From Modestobacter sp. VKM Ac-2982 (lineage in GTDB: Bacteria > Actinomycetota > Actinomycetes > Mycobacteriales > Geodermatophilaceae), in the NCBI RefSeq assembly GCF_026967935.1, contig NZ_JAPVBL010000001.1:726082-790081 (forward strand): 64,000 nt of DNA. Direction: 5' to 3'. Under the pieces are notes generated by a model. It was given only the letters and a program-made list of their open reading frames with translations. It was not told the origin of the DNA and did no database searches. Both the position numbers and the translations under genes were made by a program. Every line of letters begins with the position of its first letter. The first letter of the stretch is position 1. Shown piece after piece: positions 17,995 to 24,204 of the stretch.

Positions 17995-18840
17995 CTACCG
18001 GGCCAGCAGCTCCCGCACCCGTCGGGACAACCCGGCGTCCCCGCGGGCTGCGTCGTCCAGCCGGGTGACCGTCGCGGCGCCGCGGATGCCCGAGAGCAGC
18101 CAGACGGCGTCGGCCGACCGCAGGTCCTCCACCGACCCCGGGGTCACGGCGGTCGGCCACCCGGCGGCCTCGGCCCGGTCGAACAGCCGGGCCTGGGTCG
18201 TCCCGGCCAGGATCCCGGTGTCCACCGGCGGGGTGTGCAACCGGCCACCGGCCGCCCAGACGACGGTCGAGGTCGGGCCCTCCAGCAGTCGGCCCTCCAC
18301 CGAGGTGAGGACGACGTCGTCGGCGCCCACGGCGTGTGCGTGCCGCAGGGCGGCCATGTTCACCGCGTAGGAGAGCGTCTTCGCCCCGCCCAGCAGCCAC
18401 GGGGCGGTGGCGCGCACGTCGGCGGGCACGCCGAGGGAGAGGCTGACCACGGTGATGCCCCGTTCCCGCTGCCGCAGGGTCTCGGCCGGCACCGGGGCCA
18501 GCAGGGCGAGCAGCGTCGGCGGCCCGTCGTCCCCGAGGCCGCGGGTGAGCAGCACCCGGCAGGCGCCCTCGACCTCGGCCGGCCAGTCGGCGACCCCGGC
18601 CGCCACCACGGCCCGGACGGCGTCGTCCCCGGGGTGGGCGAGCGCCATGATCGACGCCGAGCGGCGCAACCGGGCCAGGTGGGCGTCCAGGTGCGGGGTC
18701 GTCCCGCCGGTGACCAGCACCGACTCGAAGACGCCGTCACCCCGGCCGAGCCCCAGGTCGAACCCGGTCACCACCGGCTCGTCCGGCGCCACCACCGTCG
18801 CCGTGCCGTTCCGCCAGACCACGACCCGCGCGCTCGTCAC
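17995..18840 (-). CDS. pabC: Aminodeoxychorismate lyase (class IV aminotransferase)
   Basis: PLP enzyme of folate synthesis, releasing p-aminobenzoate and pyruvate from aminodeoxychorismate. The 281-residue protein has the class IV fold with the [15 protein letters not shown]-terminal segment, the PLP lysine in [14 protein letters not shown] and the later [20 protein letters not shown] motif. Branched-chain aminotransferase or D-amino-acid transaminase cannot be fully excluded. GTG 18840 follows AGGGTGG; another GTG lies 9 bp upstream. The gene is divergent from the Fur-family gene, an arrangement also seen in other actinobacteria. Confidence 0.82.
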
Positions 18841-18867
18841 GACGTCCACCCTGCCGCATCGGCGAAC

Positions 18868-18873
18868 TAGGCT
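18868..18873 (+). promoter_or_regulatory. -10 box of the fur-ygfZ-BKACE-rsiG-asparaginase operon
   Basis: TAGGCT followed by 7 nt and then GTG 18881, the leaderless spacing. It drives the five overlapping genes that follow. Confidence 0.55.
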
Positions 18874-18880
18874 CGGCACC

Positions 18881-19330
18881 GTGTCCGGACCGGAGAGCGC
18901 GCCGCCGTTGGCCGCCGAGCTGCGGGCCCGTGGCCTGCGGCTGACCAGTCAGCGACAGCGGGTGCTGGCGGCCGTCGCGGCGCTGGAGCACGGCACCCCC
19001 GAGGAGATCGGCGCCCGGCTGCGGGCCGACGCCGGCCCGGACGGCGCGGCCCCGGACACCTCGACGGTCTACCGCACCCTGGAGCTGCTCGAGCGGCTCG
19101 GCCTGGTCTGGCACACCCACCTCGGCAAGGGCGCACCGATCTACCACGCCGCCCAGCACCCCCACCTGCACGTCGTCTGCCAGTCCTGCGGCGAGATCCA
19201 CTCGGTCGACCCGGCGCTGCTCGACAGTGCTGCGGAACGTCTGAGCGCCCAGCTGGGTTTCACCCTCGACGTGGGTCACGTGGCGCTGTCCGGCACCTGT
19301 CGAGCCTGCGCGGAGAAGGAGAACGCATGA
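18881..19330 (+). CDS. Fur-family metal-responsive repressor
   Basis: A 149-residue Fur/Zur/PerR-type regulator. The winged helix at about 10-85 includes LRLTSQRQRVLAAVAAL and DTSTVYRTLELLERLGLV. The dimerisation and metal domain has HPHLHVVCQSCGEIH and C-terminal CRAC, the two CxxC pairs of a structural zinc site. Which metal it senses (Fe, Zn or Mn) cannot be decided from sequence. It is the first gene of an operon and its stop overlaps the ygfZ ATG (ATGA), so the regulator is made together with the genes below. Confidence 0.88.
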   Translation: MSGPESAPPLAAELRARGLRLTSQRQRVLAAVAALEHGTPEEIGARLRADAGPDGAAPDTSTVYRTLELLERLGLVWHTHLGKGAPIYHAAQHPHLHVVCQSCGEIHSVDPALLDSAAERLSAQLGFTLDVGHVALSGTCRACAEKENA

Positions 19331-20439
19331 GGTCGTCCCTGCTGCAGCGCCCCGGTGCCGTCGCCCTCGACGTCGAGGGGGGCGGCTCGGTGGCGGCCCA
19401 CTACGGCGAGCCGCTGCCCGAGCAGCGCCGGCTCGCCGAGGGCGCCGGGCTGGTCGACCGCAGCGACCGGGACGTCGTCGCCGTCCCCGGCCCGGACCGG
19501 CTGAGCTGGCTGCACGACCTGACCTCCCAGCACCTGCGCGAGCTGCCCGACGCGACCGGCACCGAGGCGCTGTTCCTCGATCCGAACGGCCGGGTCGAGC
19601 ACCACGCCGTGCTGACCGAGCTGGCCGGCACCACCTGGGCCGACGTCGAGCCGGGCACGGGTGCGGCGCTGACCGGGTGGCTGCAGAAGATGCAGTTCAT
19701 GCTCCGGGTCGAGCCCGAGCTGCGCACCGCAGGATGGGCCCTGCTGAGCCTGGTCGGGCCGCAGGGCGACGCGGTGCTCACCGCGGCCGGCTGGCCGGTG
19801 CCGGCGGCGGAGCACGCCGTGGTGCCGCTGGACGGTGGCGGCTGGGCGCGCCGGATGCCGGCGATCGGTGACGGGACGGCGGCGGTCGTCGACCTGTTGG
19901 TGCCGCGGGCCGAGGTGGCGGCACGGGCCGACGCCCTGCTGGCCGCCGGTGCGGTGCTCGCCGGCCTGGACGCCTACGAGGGGCTGCGGGTCGAGGCCCG
20001 CCGCCCGCGCGCCGGGATCGACTCCGACCACCGCACCATCCCCAACGAACTGGTCTGGCTGGACAGCGCCGTCCATCTGGACAAGGGCTGCTACCGGGGC
20101 CAGGAGACGGTCGCCCGGGTGCACAACCTCGGCCGCCCGCCGCGCCGCCAGGTGCTGCTGCACCTGGACGGGATGAGCGAGGTGCTCCCCGCGCCGGGCA
20201 CCCCGGTCACCGCCGGCACGCGCGAGGTCGGCCGGGTCGGCAGCGTGGTGCGCCACCACGAGCTGGGCGTGATCGGGCTGGCGCTGGTCAAGCAGTCCGT
20301 GGCCCCCGATGCCGACCTGCGGGTCGGGGAGGCCGTCGCCGTCATCGACCCCGACGACGCCCCGGCGGCGCTGGACGACACCCGGGCGGCGGCCCGCGAC
20401 CGCGTGCGCGCCGTCCGGTCTGCGACGATCGGCCGGTGA
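19327..20439 (+). CDS. ygfZ: Folate-binding Fe-S cluster maintenance protein YgfZ
   Basis: A 370-residue member of the GcvT-like/YgfZ (IBA57) family, which uses tetrahydrofolate in maturation or repair of certain Fe-S enzymes. The diagnostic motif KGCYRGQE is present at about residue 256, and the GLVDRSDRDVVAVPGPDRLSWL N-terminal segment fits the GcvT fold. It overlaps the Fur gene by 4 bp at its start and the BKACE gene by 4 bp (GTGA) at its end. Coupling with a metal-responsive regulator fits a role in iron-sulfur homeostasis. Confidence 0.93.
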   Translation: MRSSLLQRPGAVALDVEGGGSVAAHYGEPLPEQRRLAEGAGLVDRSDRDVVAVPGPDRLSWLHDLTSQHLRELPDATGTEALFLDPNGRVEHHAVLTELAGTTWADVEPGTGAALTGWLQKMQFMLRVEPELRTAGWALLSLVGPQGDAVLTAAGWPVPAAEHAVVPLDGGGWARRMPAIGDGTAAVVDLLVPRAEVAARADALLAAGAVLAGLDAYEGLRVEARRPRAGIDSDHRTIPNELVWLDSAVHLDKGCYRGQETVARVHNLGRPPRRQVLLHLDGMSEVLPAPGTPVTAGTREVGRVGSVVRHHELGVIGLALVKQSVAPDADLRVGEAVAVIDPDDAPAALDDTRAAARDRVRAVRSATIGR

Positions 20440-21302
20440 GCACTCCGGTCGGCGTCCAGGGCACCCTGCTGACCCTGGCACCGACCGGGGCGGAGTCGGC
20501 GAAGTCCGACGTCCCGGCGCTGCCGGTGACCGTCGAGGAGCTGGTCTCCACCGCCCGCGACTGCCGGGCCCTGGGTGCGGCGGTGCTGCACCTGCACGTC
20601 CGCGGCACCGACACCCGGCCGACGCTGGACCTGCCCCGGGTCCGCGAGGTCGTCGCCGCGGTCCGGGAGGCCACCGACCTGGTCGTGCAGCTCTCGACCG
20701 GCGGCGCGGTCACCGACCCGGCTGAGGCCCGGCTGGCGGTCCTCGACGCCGAGCCGGACGCCGCCTCGCTGTCGATGGGCACGGTGAACTTCGGCCGGGA
20801 CGTCTTCTACAACCCCTGGGACCTGATCGTCGAGCTGCACACCCAGATGCAGCAGCGCGGGATCGTCCCGGAGTACGAGGTGTTCGACCTCGGCCAGCTG
20901 GCCACCCTCTCCCGGCTGCTCGACCGGCACGGGCCGCCCGCCGGCGGGCACGTGCACGTCGACCTGGTGATGGGCGTGCCCGGCGGGATGCCCGGCACGA
21001 CCGCGGCGCTGGCCGCGTGCCTGCCGTTCCTCCCGCCCGGCGCCACCTTCGCCGCGACCGGCGTGGGGCGCACCTCGCTGCCGGTGATGCTGGCCGCGCT
21101 GTCGGCCGGCGGTCACCTGCGGGTCGGCATGGAGGACACGCTGACCTACGCCCCCGGCGAGCCGGTGCGCGGCAACGCCCAGCTGGTCGCCCGGGCGGCC
21201 GGCCTCGCCCGGATCGCCCAACGCCCGCCGCTCACCCCGAGCGAGGCCCGGCAGCTGCTGGGCATCACCCGCGTCCCCACCCCTGCGGAGGTCTCCCGAT
21301 GA
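20436..21302 (+). CDS. BKACE family (DUF849) beta-keto acid cleavage enzyme
   Basis: A 288-residue TIM-barrel enzyme of the BKACE family, whose founder cleaves 3-keto-5-aminohexanoate with acetyl-CoA during lysine fermentation. Zinc ligand motifs are visible: HLHVRG (HxH, about 53-57) and GHVHVDLVMGVPGGMPG. The N-terminus LLTLAPTGAESAKSD has the TPTG-like start of the family. The real substrate is not deducible; family members act on many beta-keto acids. Overlaps on both sides (GTGA, ATGA) place it firmly in the operon. Confidence 0.85.
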   Translation: MSTPVGVQGTLLTLAPTGAESAKSDVPALPVTVEELVSTARDCRALGAAVLHLHVRGTDTRPTLDLPRVREVVAAVREATDLVVQLSTGGAVTDPAEARLAVLDAEPDAASLSMGTVNFGRDVFYNPWDLIVELHTQMQQRGIVPEYEVFDLGQLATLSRLLDRHGPPAGGHVHVDLVMGVPGGMPGTTAALAACLPFLPPGATFAATGVGRTSLPVMLAALSAGGHLRVGMEDTLTYAPGEPVRGNAQLVARAAGLARIAQRPPLTPSEARQLLGITRVPTPAEVSR

Positions 21303-21865
21303 CTGCCCCCAAGTCTCCTGCCGGCGGCGCCGGCGTCGACGAGCTGCTCGACCCGTCCTTCCTGGACGGCGTCCAGGAGCTGCCGATGACCGAGGTCCGC
21401 GCACTGCGGCACCGGGCCGAGCAGGAGGAGGTCAACCTCTCCTACACCCGGCGGCTGCTGCAGGGGCGGCTGGACATCGTCCGCCGCGAGCTGCAGCGTC
21501 GGGCCGAGCACGACGGCCGTTCGCTGGTCGACCTGCTGCCGGAGATCCTCTCGGAGAAGGGCCGCGGCCCCGCGCACGGGCTCGGTCGGCACCAGACCGT
21601 CCAGCCGACGTCCCCGGAGCAGTTCGAGACCTGGGTCAACGGGCTGGCACCGGGGGTCGACCTGTCCGACGTGCCGTCCCTGCCCGACGACCAGCTGGAG
21701 CAGGCAGCCCGGGCCCTGGGCGAGGGGGAGCGGACGCTGTCCGAGCGGCGCCGCGGGGTGCAGCAGGTGATGGACGCCGTCGCCGGTGAGCTGGCCCGCC
21801 GCTACCGCGAGGGCCTGGCCGACGTCGCGCAGCTGCTGGCCGACGAGTCCCGGCACCGCGCCTGA
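21299..21865 (+). CDS. rsiG: RsiG-type anti-sigma factor with two c-di-GMP motifs
   Basis: A 188-residue, mostly helical protein. It carries two exact copies of the RsiG signature E(X)3S(X)2R(X)3Q(X)3D: E44-S48-R51-Q55-D59 in the first helical region, and E144-S148-R151-Q155-D159 in the second. In Streptomyces, RsiG bound to a c-di-GMP dimer sequesters the sporulation sigma factor WhiG, and the same two motifs contact the ligand. The linker (about 65-130) is longer and less ordered. Start ATG overlaps the BKACE stop and the last base overlaps the asparaginase ATG (TGATG). The partner sigma factor is not in the window; a WhiG/FliA-type factor is expected elsewhere. Confidence 0.9.
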   Translation: MTAPKSPAGGAGVDELLDPSFLDGVQELPMTEVRALRHRAEQEEVNLSYTRRLLQGRLDIVRRELQRRAEHDGRSLVDLLPEILSEKGRGPAHGLGRHQTVQPTSPEQFETWVNGLAPGVDLSDVPSLPDDQLEQAARALGEGERTLSERRRGVQQVMDAVAGELARRYREGLADVAQLLADESRHRA

Positions 21866-22854
21866 TGCGGGAACAGCTGACCCGCTGGGCGGACGAGCCG
21901 GTCCTCGTCGAGGTCTGGCGCGCCGGCTTCGGCGTCGACGTGCTCGAGTCCGTGCACCGCGGGGCGCTGGTCGTGCTGGGCGTCGACGGTGCGCCGCTGC
22001 TGGAGGTCGGGGACGTCACCCGGCCGGTGCTGCCGCGCTCGTCGAACAAGCCGGTGCAGGCCACCACCTACCTGCAGGCGGGGTGGCAGCCGCGGGACGA
22101 CCGGGAGCTGGCGATCGCGGCCGCCTCGCACAGCGGTGAGGACGAGCACCGGACACTGGCCGGCGAGCTGCTCGCCGCCGCCGGGCTGGGCCCCGACGAC
22201 CTGGGGTGCCCGCCGGCGCTGCCGCAGCACGAGCGCACCCGCGCCGACTGGCTGGTGGCCGGCCGGTCGCCGGAGCGGCTGGCGATGAACTGTTCGGGCA
22301 AGCACTCGGCGATGCTGGCCGCCTGTGTGGCGGCCGGCTGGCCGACGGCCGGGTACCTGGACCCGGGACACCCGCTGCAGCAGGCGATCGAGGCGCGGCT
22401 GGGCGAGGCCGCGGGTGAGCCGGTCGCCGCGGTCGTCGTCGACGGGTGTGGCGCACCGCAGCACGCGATCTCCCTGACCGGCCTGGCCCGCGGCGTGCTC
22501 TCACTGGTGCAGGACGAGCCGGGGACGCCGGGCCGCCGGGTCGCCGACGCGATGCGCGCGCACCCCTGGCTGGTGGCCGGCACCGGTCGGGAGGACACCG
22601 AGCTGATGCAGGCCGTGGACGGCCTGCTGGTCAAGGGCGGAGCCGACGGGGTGCACGTGGCGGCGCTGCCGGGCGCCGGGGCGGTGGCGCTGAAGCTGGA
22701 CGACGGTGGCGACCGTGGCCGGGCGCCGGCGCTGGCCGCCGGGCTGCAGCGGCTGGGGGTGCCGGCCGAGACGCTGGCCCGGTGGCTGGTCACGCCGGTG
22801 AACGGCGGCGAGGGCGTGGTGGGCGAGGTCCGGGCAGCCGCCGTCCTCGGCTGA
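21865..22854 (+). CDS. L-asparaginase II family protein
   Basis: A 329-residue member of the asparaginase family typified by the Rhizobium etli enzyme (PF06089), unrelated to the E. coli type. Diagnostic segments are LPRSSNKPVQA (about 56-66), HSGEDEHRTLAGELL, MNCSGKHSAMLAAC and DGCGAPQHAISL. It would hydrolyse asparagine to aspartate and ammonia in the cytoplasm. It is the last gene of the overlapping operon; the next transcription unit starts 55 bp downstream. Confidence 0.88.
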   Translation: MREQLTRWADEPVLVEVWRAGFGVDVLESVHRGALVVLGVDGAPLLEVGDVTRPVLPRSSNKPVQATTYLQAGWQPRDDRELAIAAASHSGEDEHRTLAGELLAAAGLGPDDLGCPPALPQHERTRADWLVAGRSPERLAMNCSGKHSAMLAACVAAGWPTAGYLDPGHPLQQAIEARLGEAAGEPVAAVVVDGCGAPQHAISLTGLARGVLSLVQDEPGTPGRRVADAMRAHPWLVAGTGREDTELMQAVDGLLVKGGADGVHVAALPGAGAVALKLDDGGDRGRAPALAAGLQRLGVPAETLARWLVTPVNGGEGVVGEVRAAAVLG

Positions 22855-22860
22855 GCCAGT

Positions 22861-22903
22861 TGCTAGCAGTCCGCTTGCAAGAGCTAGCACGCTGGGCTAA
22901 CGT
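22861..22903 (+). promoter_or_regulatory. Promoter and candidate operator of the XRE-hbhA unit
   Basis: -35 TTGCAA (22875-22880), a 17-bp spacer and -10 TAACGT (22898-22903), then 6 nt to GTG 22910, so the message is leaderless. The -35 lies inside the palindrome CTTGCAAG (22874-22881), flanked by TGCTAGCA at 22861-22868 and GCTAGCA at 22883/22884-22889. The symmetric boxes suggest a repressor site, perhaps for the XRE protein itself. Confidence 0.65.
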
Positions 22904-22909
22904 GGGGCT

Positions 22910-23422
22910 GTGCAGCGACCCACGGAGTTCGTCCGGGACCAGGTGACCGCCGTCCGCGAGAGCGTCGCGACGGCGGCTGCCGAGGCCTCGACGGTGAACA
23001 CGACCGTCAGCTCCTCGGTCGGTGAGTTCATCCGCAACCAGCGCAACGCCGCCCAGGTGTCGCTGCGCGAGCTCTCCCGGCTGGCTGGCGTGAGCAACCC
23101 CTACCTGTCCCAGGTCGAGCGCGGGCTGCGCAAGCCCTCCGCCGAGATCCTGGCGCAGATCGCCCGCGGCCTGAAGATCTCCGCGGAGACGCTCTACGAG
23201 CAGGCCGGGATCCTCGACCGGCGGTCGGGGACGGCGAGCACCGTCGCCGCCCTGCGGGCCGACGAGGCGCTCTCCGAGCGGCACAAGGCCGTGCTCCTGG
23301 AGCTGTACGAGACCTACACCCGGGAGCACGCCGCACAGCTCGCCCGCGAGCAGGCGGCTGTGTCCTCAGCACCCGCCCCCACCACCGCACCCACCCCCAC
23401 TCCCCAGGAGGAGACGGCATGA
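22910..23422 (+). CDS. XRE-family regulator (Rv0474-like)
   Basis: A 170-residue DNA-binding protein. The helix-turn-helix at about 36-92 (IRNQRNAAQVSLRELSRLAG, then SNPYLSQVERGLRKPSAEIL) is of Cro/CI type. The first 35 residues are Ser/Thr/Ala-rich and the C-terminal 25 are a Pro/Thr/Ala tail. The homologue in M. tuberculosis is also directly upstream of hbhA. The gene starts at a leaderless GTG and overlaps hbhA by 4 bp (ATGA). Autoregulation through the boxes upstream is likely but inferred. Confidence 0.88.
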   Translation: MQRPTEFVRDQVTAVRESVATAAAEASTVNTTVSSSVGEFIRNQRNAAQVSLRELSRLAGVSNPYLSQVERGLRKPSAEILAQIARGLKISAETLYEQAGILDRRSGTASTVAALRADEALSERHKAVLLELYETYTREHAAQLAREQAAVSSAPAPTTAPTPTPQEETA

Positions 23423-24204
23423 GCCGCACCGACACCCTGAAGCACCACGGCGAGACCTTCGTCCGCACCGGCCTGCTGGCCGCGCTCGGCGCCGGCGACG
23501 TCGCCGTCGACCGCGCCCGCACCGTCGTCGGCACCTTCCGCACCCGCGCCGAGGCGCTGCCCGGCGAGGCCCAGGTGCAGGCAGACCTGGCCGGCAAGGA
23601 GGCGCGCACCCGCGTCGAGGCCGCCCGCGCCCGCGCCGCCCAGGCGGCGGCCGAGGCCCGGGTCCGCGCCGAGCAGGCCCGCGGGGTCGCCACCACCGTC
23701 CGCCCGGAGACCGTGCTGGGCACCGTCACCGGCCTCGTGGAGAGCGCCCGCACCCAGGCGCTCGGCGCGATCGAGGAGCTGGCCGGTCGCGGCGAGAAGG
23801 TCGTCGACGACCTCCGGACCCAGCCGGCGTTCCGCAAGGTCGTGGCCCGGACCGAGCGGGCCGTCGACGCCGTCGAGGACACCGTCGAGGACGTGCTCGA
23901 GGAGACCGGTGAGACCGTCGGGAAGGCCTCCGACGAGGTCACCTCGGTCGCGCAGAAGGCCAAGTCGCGCACCGACAAGGCCGTGGACGCCGCGCAGCAG
24001 GAGACCCAGGAGGTCGCTGAGCAGGCCAAGCGCAGCGCCCGGGACACCACCGCCCCGGCGAAGAAGGCCCCGGCCAAGAAGGCGGCCGCCAAGCGCACTC
24101 CCAAGGCCACCCCGGCGACCGTCGCCCCGGTCGAGTCGGCCGCCGACCCGCTGCCCGACCCGCTGGCCGTCCCGGCGAAGAGCACCGACGACGCCACCAG
24201 CTGA
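23419..24204 (+). CDS. hbhA: HbhA-like heparin-binding/coiled-coil protein
   Basis: A 261-residue protein with a long charged helical region (about 35-200) rich in Arg, Ala and Glu, apt to form a coiled coil. The C-terminal tail is of Lys/Ala/Pro type (KKAPAKKAAAKRTPKA). That layout is the hallmark of mycobacterial HbhA, an adhesin that also binds lipid bodies and membranes. No signal peptide is present, as in HbhA. In a non-pathogen the role may concern intracytoplasmic lipid inclusions or membranes rather than adhesion. It is translationally coupled to the XRE gene and followed by a strong terminator. Confidence 0.82.
   Translation: MSRTDTLKHHGETFVRTGLLAALGAGDVAVDRARTVVGTFRTRAEALPGEAQVQADLAGKEARTRVEAARARAAQAAAEARVRAEQARGVATTVRPETVLGTVTGLVESARTQALGAIEELAGRGEKVVDDLRTQPAFRKVVARTERAVDAVEDTVEDVLEETGETVGKASDEVTSVAQKAKSRTDKAVDAAQQETQEVAEQAKRSARDTTAPAKKAPAKKAAAKRTPKATPATVAPVESAADPLPDPLAVPAKSTDDATS

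Follow-up and report, generated by a model that had tools for sequence, protein, structure and literature searches.

Within a 64,000-nucleotide stretch of DNA from Modestobacter sp. VKM Ac-2982 (Geodermatophilaceae), hereafter the window, five plus-strand genes at 18881 to 22854 encode, in order, a Fur-family repressor, a YgfZ-type protein, a beta-keto acid cleavage enzyme (BKACE), the anti-sigma factor RsiG and an L-asparaginase II (Table 1), and successive genes overlap by 4, 4, 4 and 1 bp. All five family assignments by profile are firm, and the Pfam and NCBIfam matches agree with the gene calls of a preliminary description that was made from the sequence alone. We present evidence that this RsiG is quite probably an ordinary anti-WhiG factor armed by cyclic dimeric guanosine monophosphate (c-di-GMP), which sits behind one leaderless promoter in an old, vertically inherited cassette and does not belong to a dedicated circuit.

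RsiG and its likely sigma factor

RsiG carries two exact copies of the motif E(X)3S(X)2R(X)3Q(X)3D, E44-D59 and E144-D159, just as the preliminary description had it when it called the protein an RsiG. Shuffling the protein produced at least one motif in 84 of 200,000 shuffles and two motifs in 0 of 200,000, and the motif occurs in 1 of the 537 stop-to-stop open reading frames (ORFs) of at least 60 amino acids within the window. Membership of the Pfam RsiG-like family scores 95.2 bits against a cut-off of 27. The predicted structure is an antiparallel coiled coil with one motif on each long helix, and its best fold match among 418 Foldseek-ranked chains is the RsiG of Streptomyces venezuelae. 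Close relatives share the protein: it is 97 to 99% identical to the RsiG of four Modestobacter loci (L006-L009), and the BKACE of the window is 98% identical to named Modestobacter proteins.

The sigma gene for which a search had earlier been suggested is present in the genome, so that the objection of a missing WhiG falls away: the protein matches the NCBIfam WhiG equivalog at 389.7 bits (cut-off 343) and 6pfj_A at 4.2e-93. The relevant passages of PMC8325347 give K57, G61 and R62 as the c-di-GMP contacts of S. venezuelae WhiG, and in our alignment the Modestobacter WhiG keeps lysine, glycine and arginine at these positions. A second sigma factor, FliA-like by a label that comes from alignment and position only, adjoins the flagellin genes. 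Because it has glutamine, serine and arginine where WhiG keeps lysine, glycine and arginine, so that two of the three differ, WhiG appears the likelier partner of RsiG. The genome has 30 GGDEF matches. For S. venezuelae, PMC13232838 describes a further competitor of RsiG for WhiG, the phosphodiesterase RmdB.

Table 1. Features in and around the five-gene locus, in window coordinates
Feature	Position	Strand	Evidence or remark
Class IV aminotransferase gene	17995-18879	-	PF01063 4.4e-45; divergent, borders the operon but lies outside it
-10-like element TAGGCT of candidate leaderless promoter	18868-18873	+	7 nt before fur GTG
Fur-family repressor	18881-19330	+	GTG start; Pfam FUR 8.4e-19; PDB 3eyy 6.2e-34
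YgfZ/CAF17-type folate-binding iron-sulfur (Fe-S) maintenance protein	19327-20439	+	Pfam GCV_T 8.5e-27; NCBIfam YgfZ TIGR03317 93.1 bits, cut-off 49
BKACE	20436-21302	+	GTG start; PF05853 2.7e-88; PDB 2y7d 4.5e-61
Shine-Dalgarno-like GCGGAGG before rsiG	21285-21291	+	read from sequence; inside BKACE 3' end
RsiG, 188 aa	21299-21865	+	Pfam RsiG PF22802 1.8e-27, two stretches matched
L-asparaginase II	21865-22854	+	Asparaginase_II PF06089 2.1e-102
Repeats TTGCTAGCA and TTGCAAGAGCTAGCA	22855-22909		before the leaderless helix-turn-helix (HTH) gene
-10-like TAACGT of next, separate candidate leaderless unit	22898-22903	+	before HTH gene
HTH gene	22910-23422
Gene after HTH gene	23419-24204		presumably HbhA-like

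Promoter signals and the search for metal sites

We surveyed 65 Geodermatophilaceae loci, 64 of them assessable for BKACE. A TANNNT element stands just before the fur start in 62/62 of these loci (61/62 under slightly different position bounds), against a shuffled mean of 1.4, and before the downstream HTH gene in 64/64, against 4.3. At the same position the internal genes have none (YgfZ 0/63, BKACE 0/33, RsiG 0/64, asparaginase 0/56); this comparison covers elements of the TANNNT type at the start-proximal position, and internal starts lie in or near coding sequence, which itself depletes such elements. Its spacing in the window, 7 nt from the fur GTG, points to a leaderless transcript. Since TANNNT precedes fur and the downstream HTH gene but no internal gene at that position, the five genes likely form one operon that ends with asparaginase, which bears out the single operon proposed earlier. 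The preliminary description had also held that the genes are translated together: the overlaps are real, but joint translation would be a further step, and rsiG has a Shine-Dalgarno-like sequence of its own. The repeats between asparaginase and the HTH gene are perhaps the operator of the HTH gene itself. At the other border, the class IV aminotransferase gene is divergent beside Fur and YgfZ in many relatives too.

The closest solved relative of the window Fur is 3eyy, well ahead of the next match (4.2e-13); the PDB lists it as a putative iron uptake regulatory protein, and we take it to be the Nur of Streptomyces coelicolor. Those of its histidines that we presume to be metal ligands align with histidines in the window Fur. 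A search of -120 to +6 of fur for exact inverted repeats (arms of 6, gap up to 12) came back empty; a degenerate operator would escape it. At one mismatch the Nur-type box has 9 sites genome-wide (18 when both strands are counted), compared with 12 (24) of the control pattern, and none within the window. The preliminary description had proposed a tie, through the operon, between metal or Fe-S status and the anti-sigma factor. We do not accept such a metal/Fe-S to c-di-GMP circuit, because no inverted repeat precedes fur and Nur-type boxes do not exceed the control; a link through shared dose is possible.

RsiG, WhiG and the history of the cassette

RsiG and its operon neighbors are not gained and lost together. 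Among the family loci, asparaginase follows RsiG in 64/65 and Fur-YgfZ is present in 62/65, the sequence stretch ending early in the other three, and BKACE is present in 34/64 and absent from 30/64. Two Modestobacter loci without BKACE (L011 and L015) have, upstream of rsiG, a 31-nt stretch that is 87% identical to the BKACE 3' end and includes the rsiG ribosome-binding region. Our survey outside the family spans 140 loci, of which 120 of the twin-motif type were counted; the other 20, from single-motif families, from f99 and f8 or present as second copies, were set aside. Family labels there are anonymous f-numbers, and the taxon names that we attach to them are inferences. The families in which BKACE, RsiG and asparaginase are contiguous span at least two classes. 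Fur-YgfZ-RsiG is found in all five loci of f5 (probably Streptomycetaceae), and in f89 Fur is missing from the examined stretch in 14/27 loci, with YgfZ present there.

The cassette also persists without RsiG. In f3, a family of the same order (probably Micromonosporaceae), our survey returned no RsiG match. Among 18 RsiG-less genomes from f3, f82 and f83, YgfZ-BKACE is retained in 15, in most of them alongside Fur and asparaginase; since a BKACE of suitable length was the criterion for picking the f3 genomes, this fraction does not give a rate for the whole family. Fur-YgfZ-BKACE is kept in 13/16 of the f3 genomes, with asparaginase next, within the examined stretch, in 11 of those 13, and in a fourteenth (G537) BKACE adjoins asparaginase without YgfZ. 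The f82 and f83 genomes (G401 and G402) keep YgfZ-BKACE-asparaginase, G401 with Fur as well. In five RsiG-less f2 genomes, the BKACE loci (L284, L285, L286, L287 and L291) have no cassette. In five of the f3 loci (L274-L278) the asparaginase GTG is preceded, at a distance of a few bases, by a TACCGT- or TACGGT-like element, possibly a separate leaderless promoter.

The presence of RsiG tracks that of WhiG. Scoring WhiG as present at E <= 1e-60, we found no WhiG match in any of the 18 RsiG-less genomes of the cassette survey. The order was sampled with 249 genomes: RsiG and WhiG occur together in 99, RsiG alone in 8, WhiG alone in 2, and neither of them in 140 (Fisher p 6e-57, a statistic that ignores shared ancestry). 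Of the eight genomes with RsiG alone, six are f84 assemblies whose completeness is 81 to 92%, and in another (G503) the RsiG match is weak. Two f89 genomes of g292 (G568 and G627) encode a diverged WhiG (266 and 230 bits) with no RsiG match, and their WhiG may have escaped c-di-GMP control.

We also built a BKACE tree of 82 rows, comprising 40 RsiG-linked BKACEs (of 84; 42 were chosen, and a length filter removed L052 and L053) and 42 further BKACEs; several near-duplicates were not included. At 55% identity the RsiG-linked BKACEs form four clusters, of 71 (window included), 7, 4 and 3. Such clusters could have arisen if different BKACEs had been recruited to the side of rsiG several times over; we rejected this in favor of divergence because 34 of the 40 linked rows share one well supported group, together with 8 rows from RsiG-less cassettes, 3 moved and 1 unlinked. 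Six linked f10 rows are placed apart from this main group. Several linked BKACEs (L062, L080, L233, L234, L076 and L074) sit on long branches, either from fast evolution or from a changed substrate. The BKACEs of RsiG-less cassettes nest inside the RsiG-linked clade. Together with the counts above, this makes the cassette look vertically inherited; rsiG appears able to drop out of it, and its presence follows that of a close whiG.

A second RsiG-like family lies outside the fur cassette in seven loci (L094, L095, L097, L102, L108, L110 and L209). Its first motif is complete in 6/7 (ED[KR]VSYWRRL[VI][HQ]ARLD in four), and its second is exact in two and degenerate in the rest. Genomes of f99 and f8 have it as their only copy, other genomes as a second one; PMC8325347 reports a second copy in a single genome only. 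In L102 (6088-6807, minus strand) the RsiG-like gene is divergent from a gene for a FliA/WhiG-type sigma factor. In L110 (661-1392 and 7517-9223, both plus strand) the RsiG-like gene precedes one for a T2SSE ATPase that has an MshEN domain, and a sigma gene lies about 5.6 kb off. This arrangement is possibly a pilus-linked RsiG switch.

Readings of the locus and known systems

By analogy with S. venezuelae, and judging from conservation here, the two motif helices of RsiG would hold a c-di-GMP dimer when c-di-GMP is high, and RsiG so armed would bind and silence WhiG, which a drop in c-di-GMP would release. The protein would be expressed from the leaderless promoter before fur, within a Fur(Nur-type)-YgfZ-(BKACE)-RsiG-asparaginase II cassette whose other members are read on the same transcript and probably have the same basal dose; rsiG and these neighbors could be lost independently of one another, and the fate of rsiG would follow that of whiG. 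Several observations weigh against this reading. The BKACE-RsiG overlap is exactly 4 bp in 33/35 Geodermatophilaceae (window included), which is tighter than a passenger needs. Outside the family, BKACE lies directly upstream of RsiG in 53/117 loci (17 of 35 family labels; L204, with less than 500 nt upstream, is counted in the 53 and not in the 117), and asparaginase lies directly downstream in 59/118 (16 labels). The rearranged locus L106 keeps BKACE and RsiG together, with YgfZ and Fur on the opposite strand. TANNNT occurs anywhere within 100 nt upstream of rsiG in 10/64 family loci, where 6.6 are expected. No WhiG regulon emerged from the published promoter consensus, TAAA-N14..16-GCCGATAA, which has no exact match in the genome; with N15 and two mismatches it has 14 matches against 8 for a reversed-pattern control, and of the 3 of these 14 sites that were inspected none is convincing, one sitting 84 nt before a possible lipoprotein ORF. 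Nor is the pair inseparable, since passages of PMC8325347 report Actinoplanes species with WhiG and without RsiG; our WhiG threshold may not count sigmas such as theirs.

A rival idea is that the operon is a functional module, in which metal, Fe-S, beta-keto acid or nitrogen status sets the dose of RsiG and hence the c-di-GMP threshold of WhiG. The shared leaderless promoter, the frequent contiguity of BKACE with RsiG and of RsiG with asparaginase across classes, and the 4-bp overlaps (15/46 outside the family as well) all speak for it; we nevertheless think it unlikely, given that a Fur/Nur operator was not found, that the neighbors are optional and the cassette is kept without RsiG, that RsiG co-occurs with WhiG, and that RsiG-less cassettes are nested inside the linked clade of the BKACE tree. 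Slimmer still is the chance that a conserved BKACE-rsiG-asparaginase II core, driven from a single leaderless Nur-type fur promoter, sets the amount of anti-sigma factor by metal and carbon/nitrogen state; if true, it would give second-messenger control of WhiG a metabolic gain setting. The lasting adjacency of the three genes, and its survival of rearrangement in L106 for BKACE and RsiG, could also mean that BKACE or asparaginase is a moonlighting protein partner of RsiG, but BKACE is missing from nearly half of the assessable family loci and 14/18 of the f3, f82 and f83 genomes examined keep BKACE beside asparaginase without RsiG, and we consider such a partnership very improbable. We give equally little credence to direct motility control, with RsiG acting on the FliA-like flagellar sigma in place of WhiG: the genome does have flagellins with that sigma beside them, but the sigma is without two of the three c-di-GMP-contact residues kept by WhiG, and it is with a close WhiG match that RsiG co-occurs. 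An ordinary anti-WhiG RsiG in an inherited cassette corrects the tempting reading that the operon partners of a signaling protein are its regulators. It also supplies a clear RsiG context outside Streptomyces, with one likely leaderless operon and a defined WhiG partner, and relatives that lack rsiG and a close whiG but have the cassette are a natural test that separates operon neighborhood from function.

Twin-motif RsiG in Geodermatophilaceae and gcvT and amfC near fur are already known. The pertinent passages of PMC8325347 (2021) record twin-motif RsiG in 16/16 Geodermatophilaceae, the group to which the window RsiG belongs; unlike the present analysis, the main text of that paper, as covered by a term search, does not discuss the genes around rsiG. 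The legend to Fig. 3 of PMC2464607 (2008) names gcvT, tst, amfC and dtd, one after another, as genes in synteny with fur homologues; a passage of that paper describes a fur context common to SCO4180 and four other group E genes. We infer that the four listed genes belong to the group E context, which fits Fur-YgfZ-RsiG in the five f5 loci. Because the RsiG chain of 6pfj carries the name AmfC protein, the amfC of the legend is probably rsiG; a passage of PMC4255298 uses amfC for a different gene, SCO6681. BKACE and asparaginase II are not in the legend's list, Geodermatophilaceae do not appear in the passages of PMC2464607 that we consulted, and a search of the open-access literature found no BKACE-RsiG link in print.

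The closest solved relative of the window Fur is thus presumably S. coelicolor Nur, but the genome-wide signal of a Nur box was not found here. The Rubrobacter RsiG (7lq2-7lq4) shares the motif and the sigma target with the window RsiG and differs in being a homodimer with one motif; the short single-motif-type loci that we examined (f19, f22, f28, f43, f47 and f49) showed neither Fur nor BKACE, and in two of them YgfZ lies 5 kb away. From the S. venezuelae RsiG (6pfj/6pfv) the window RsiG is set apart by its Geodermatophilaceae host and by the BKACE and asparaginase genes that flank it.

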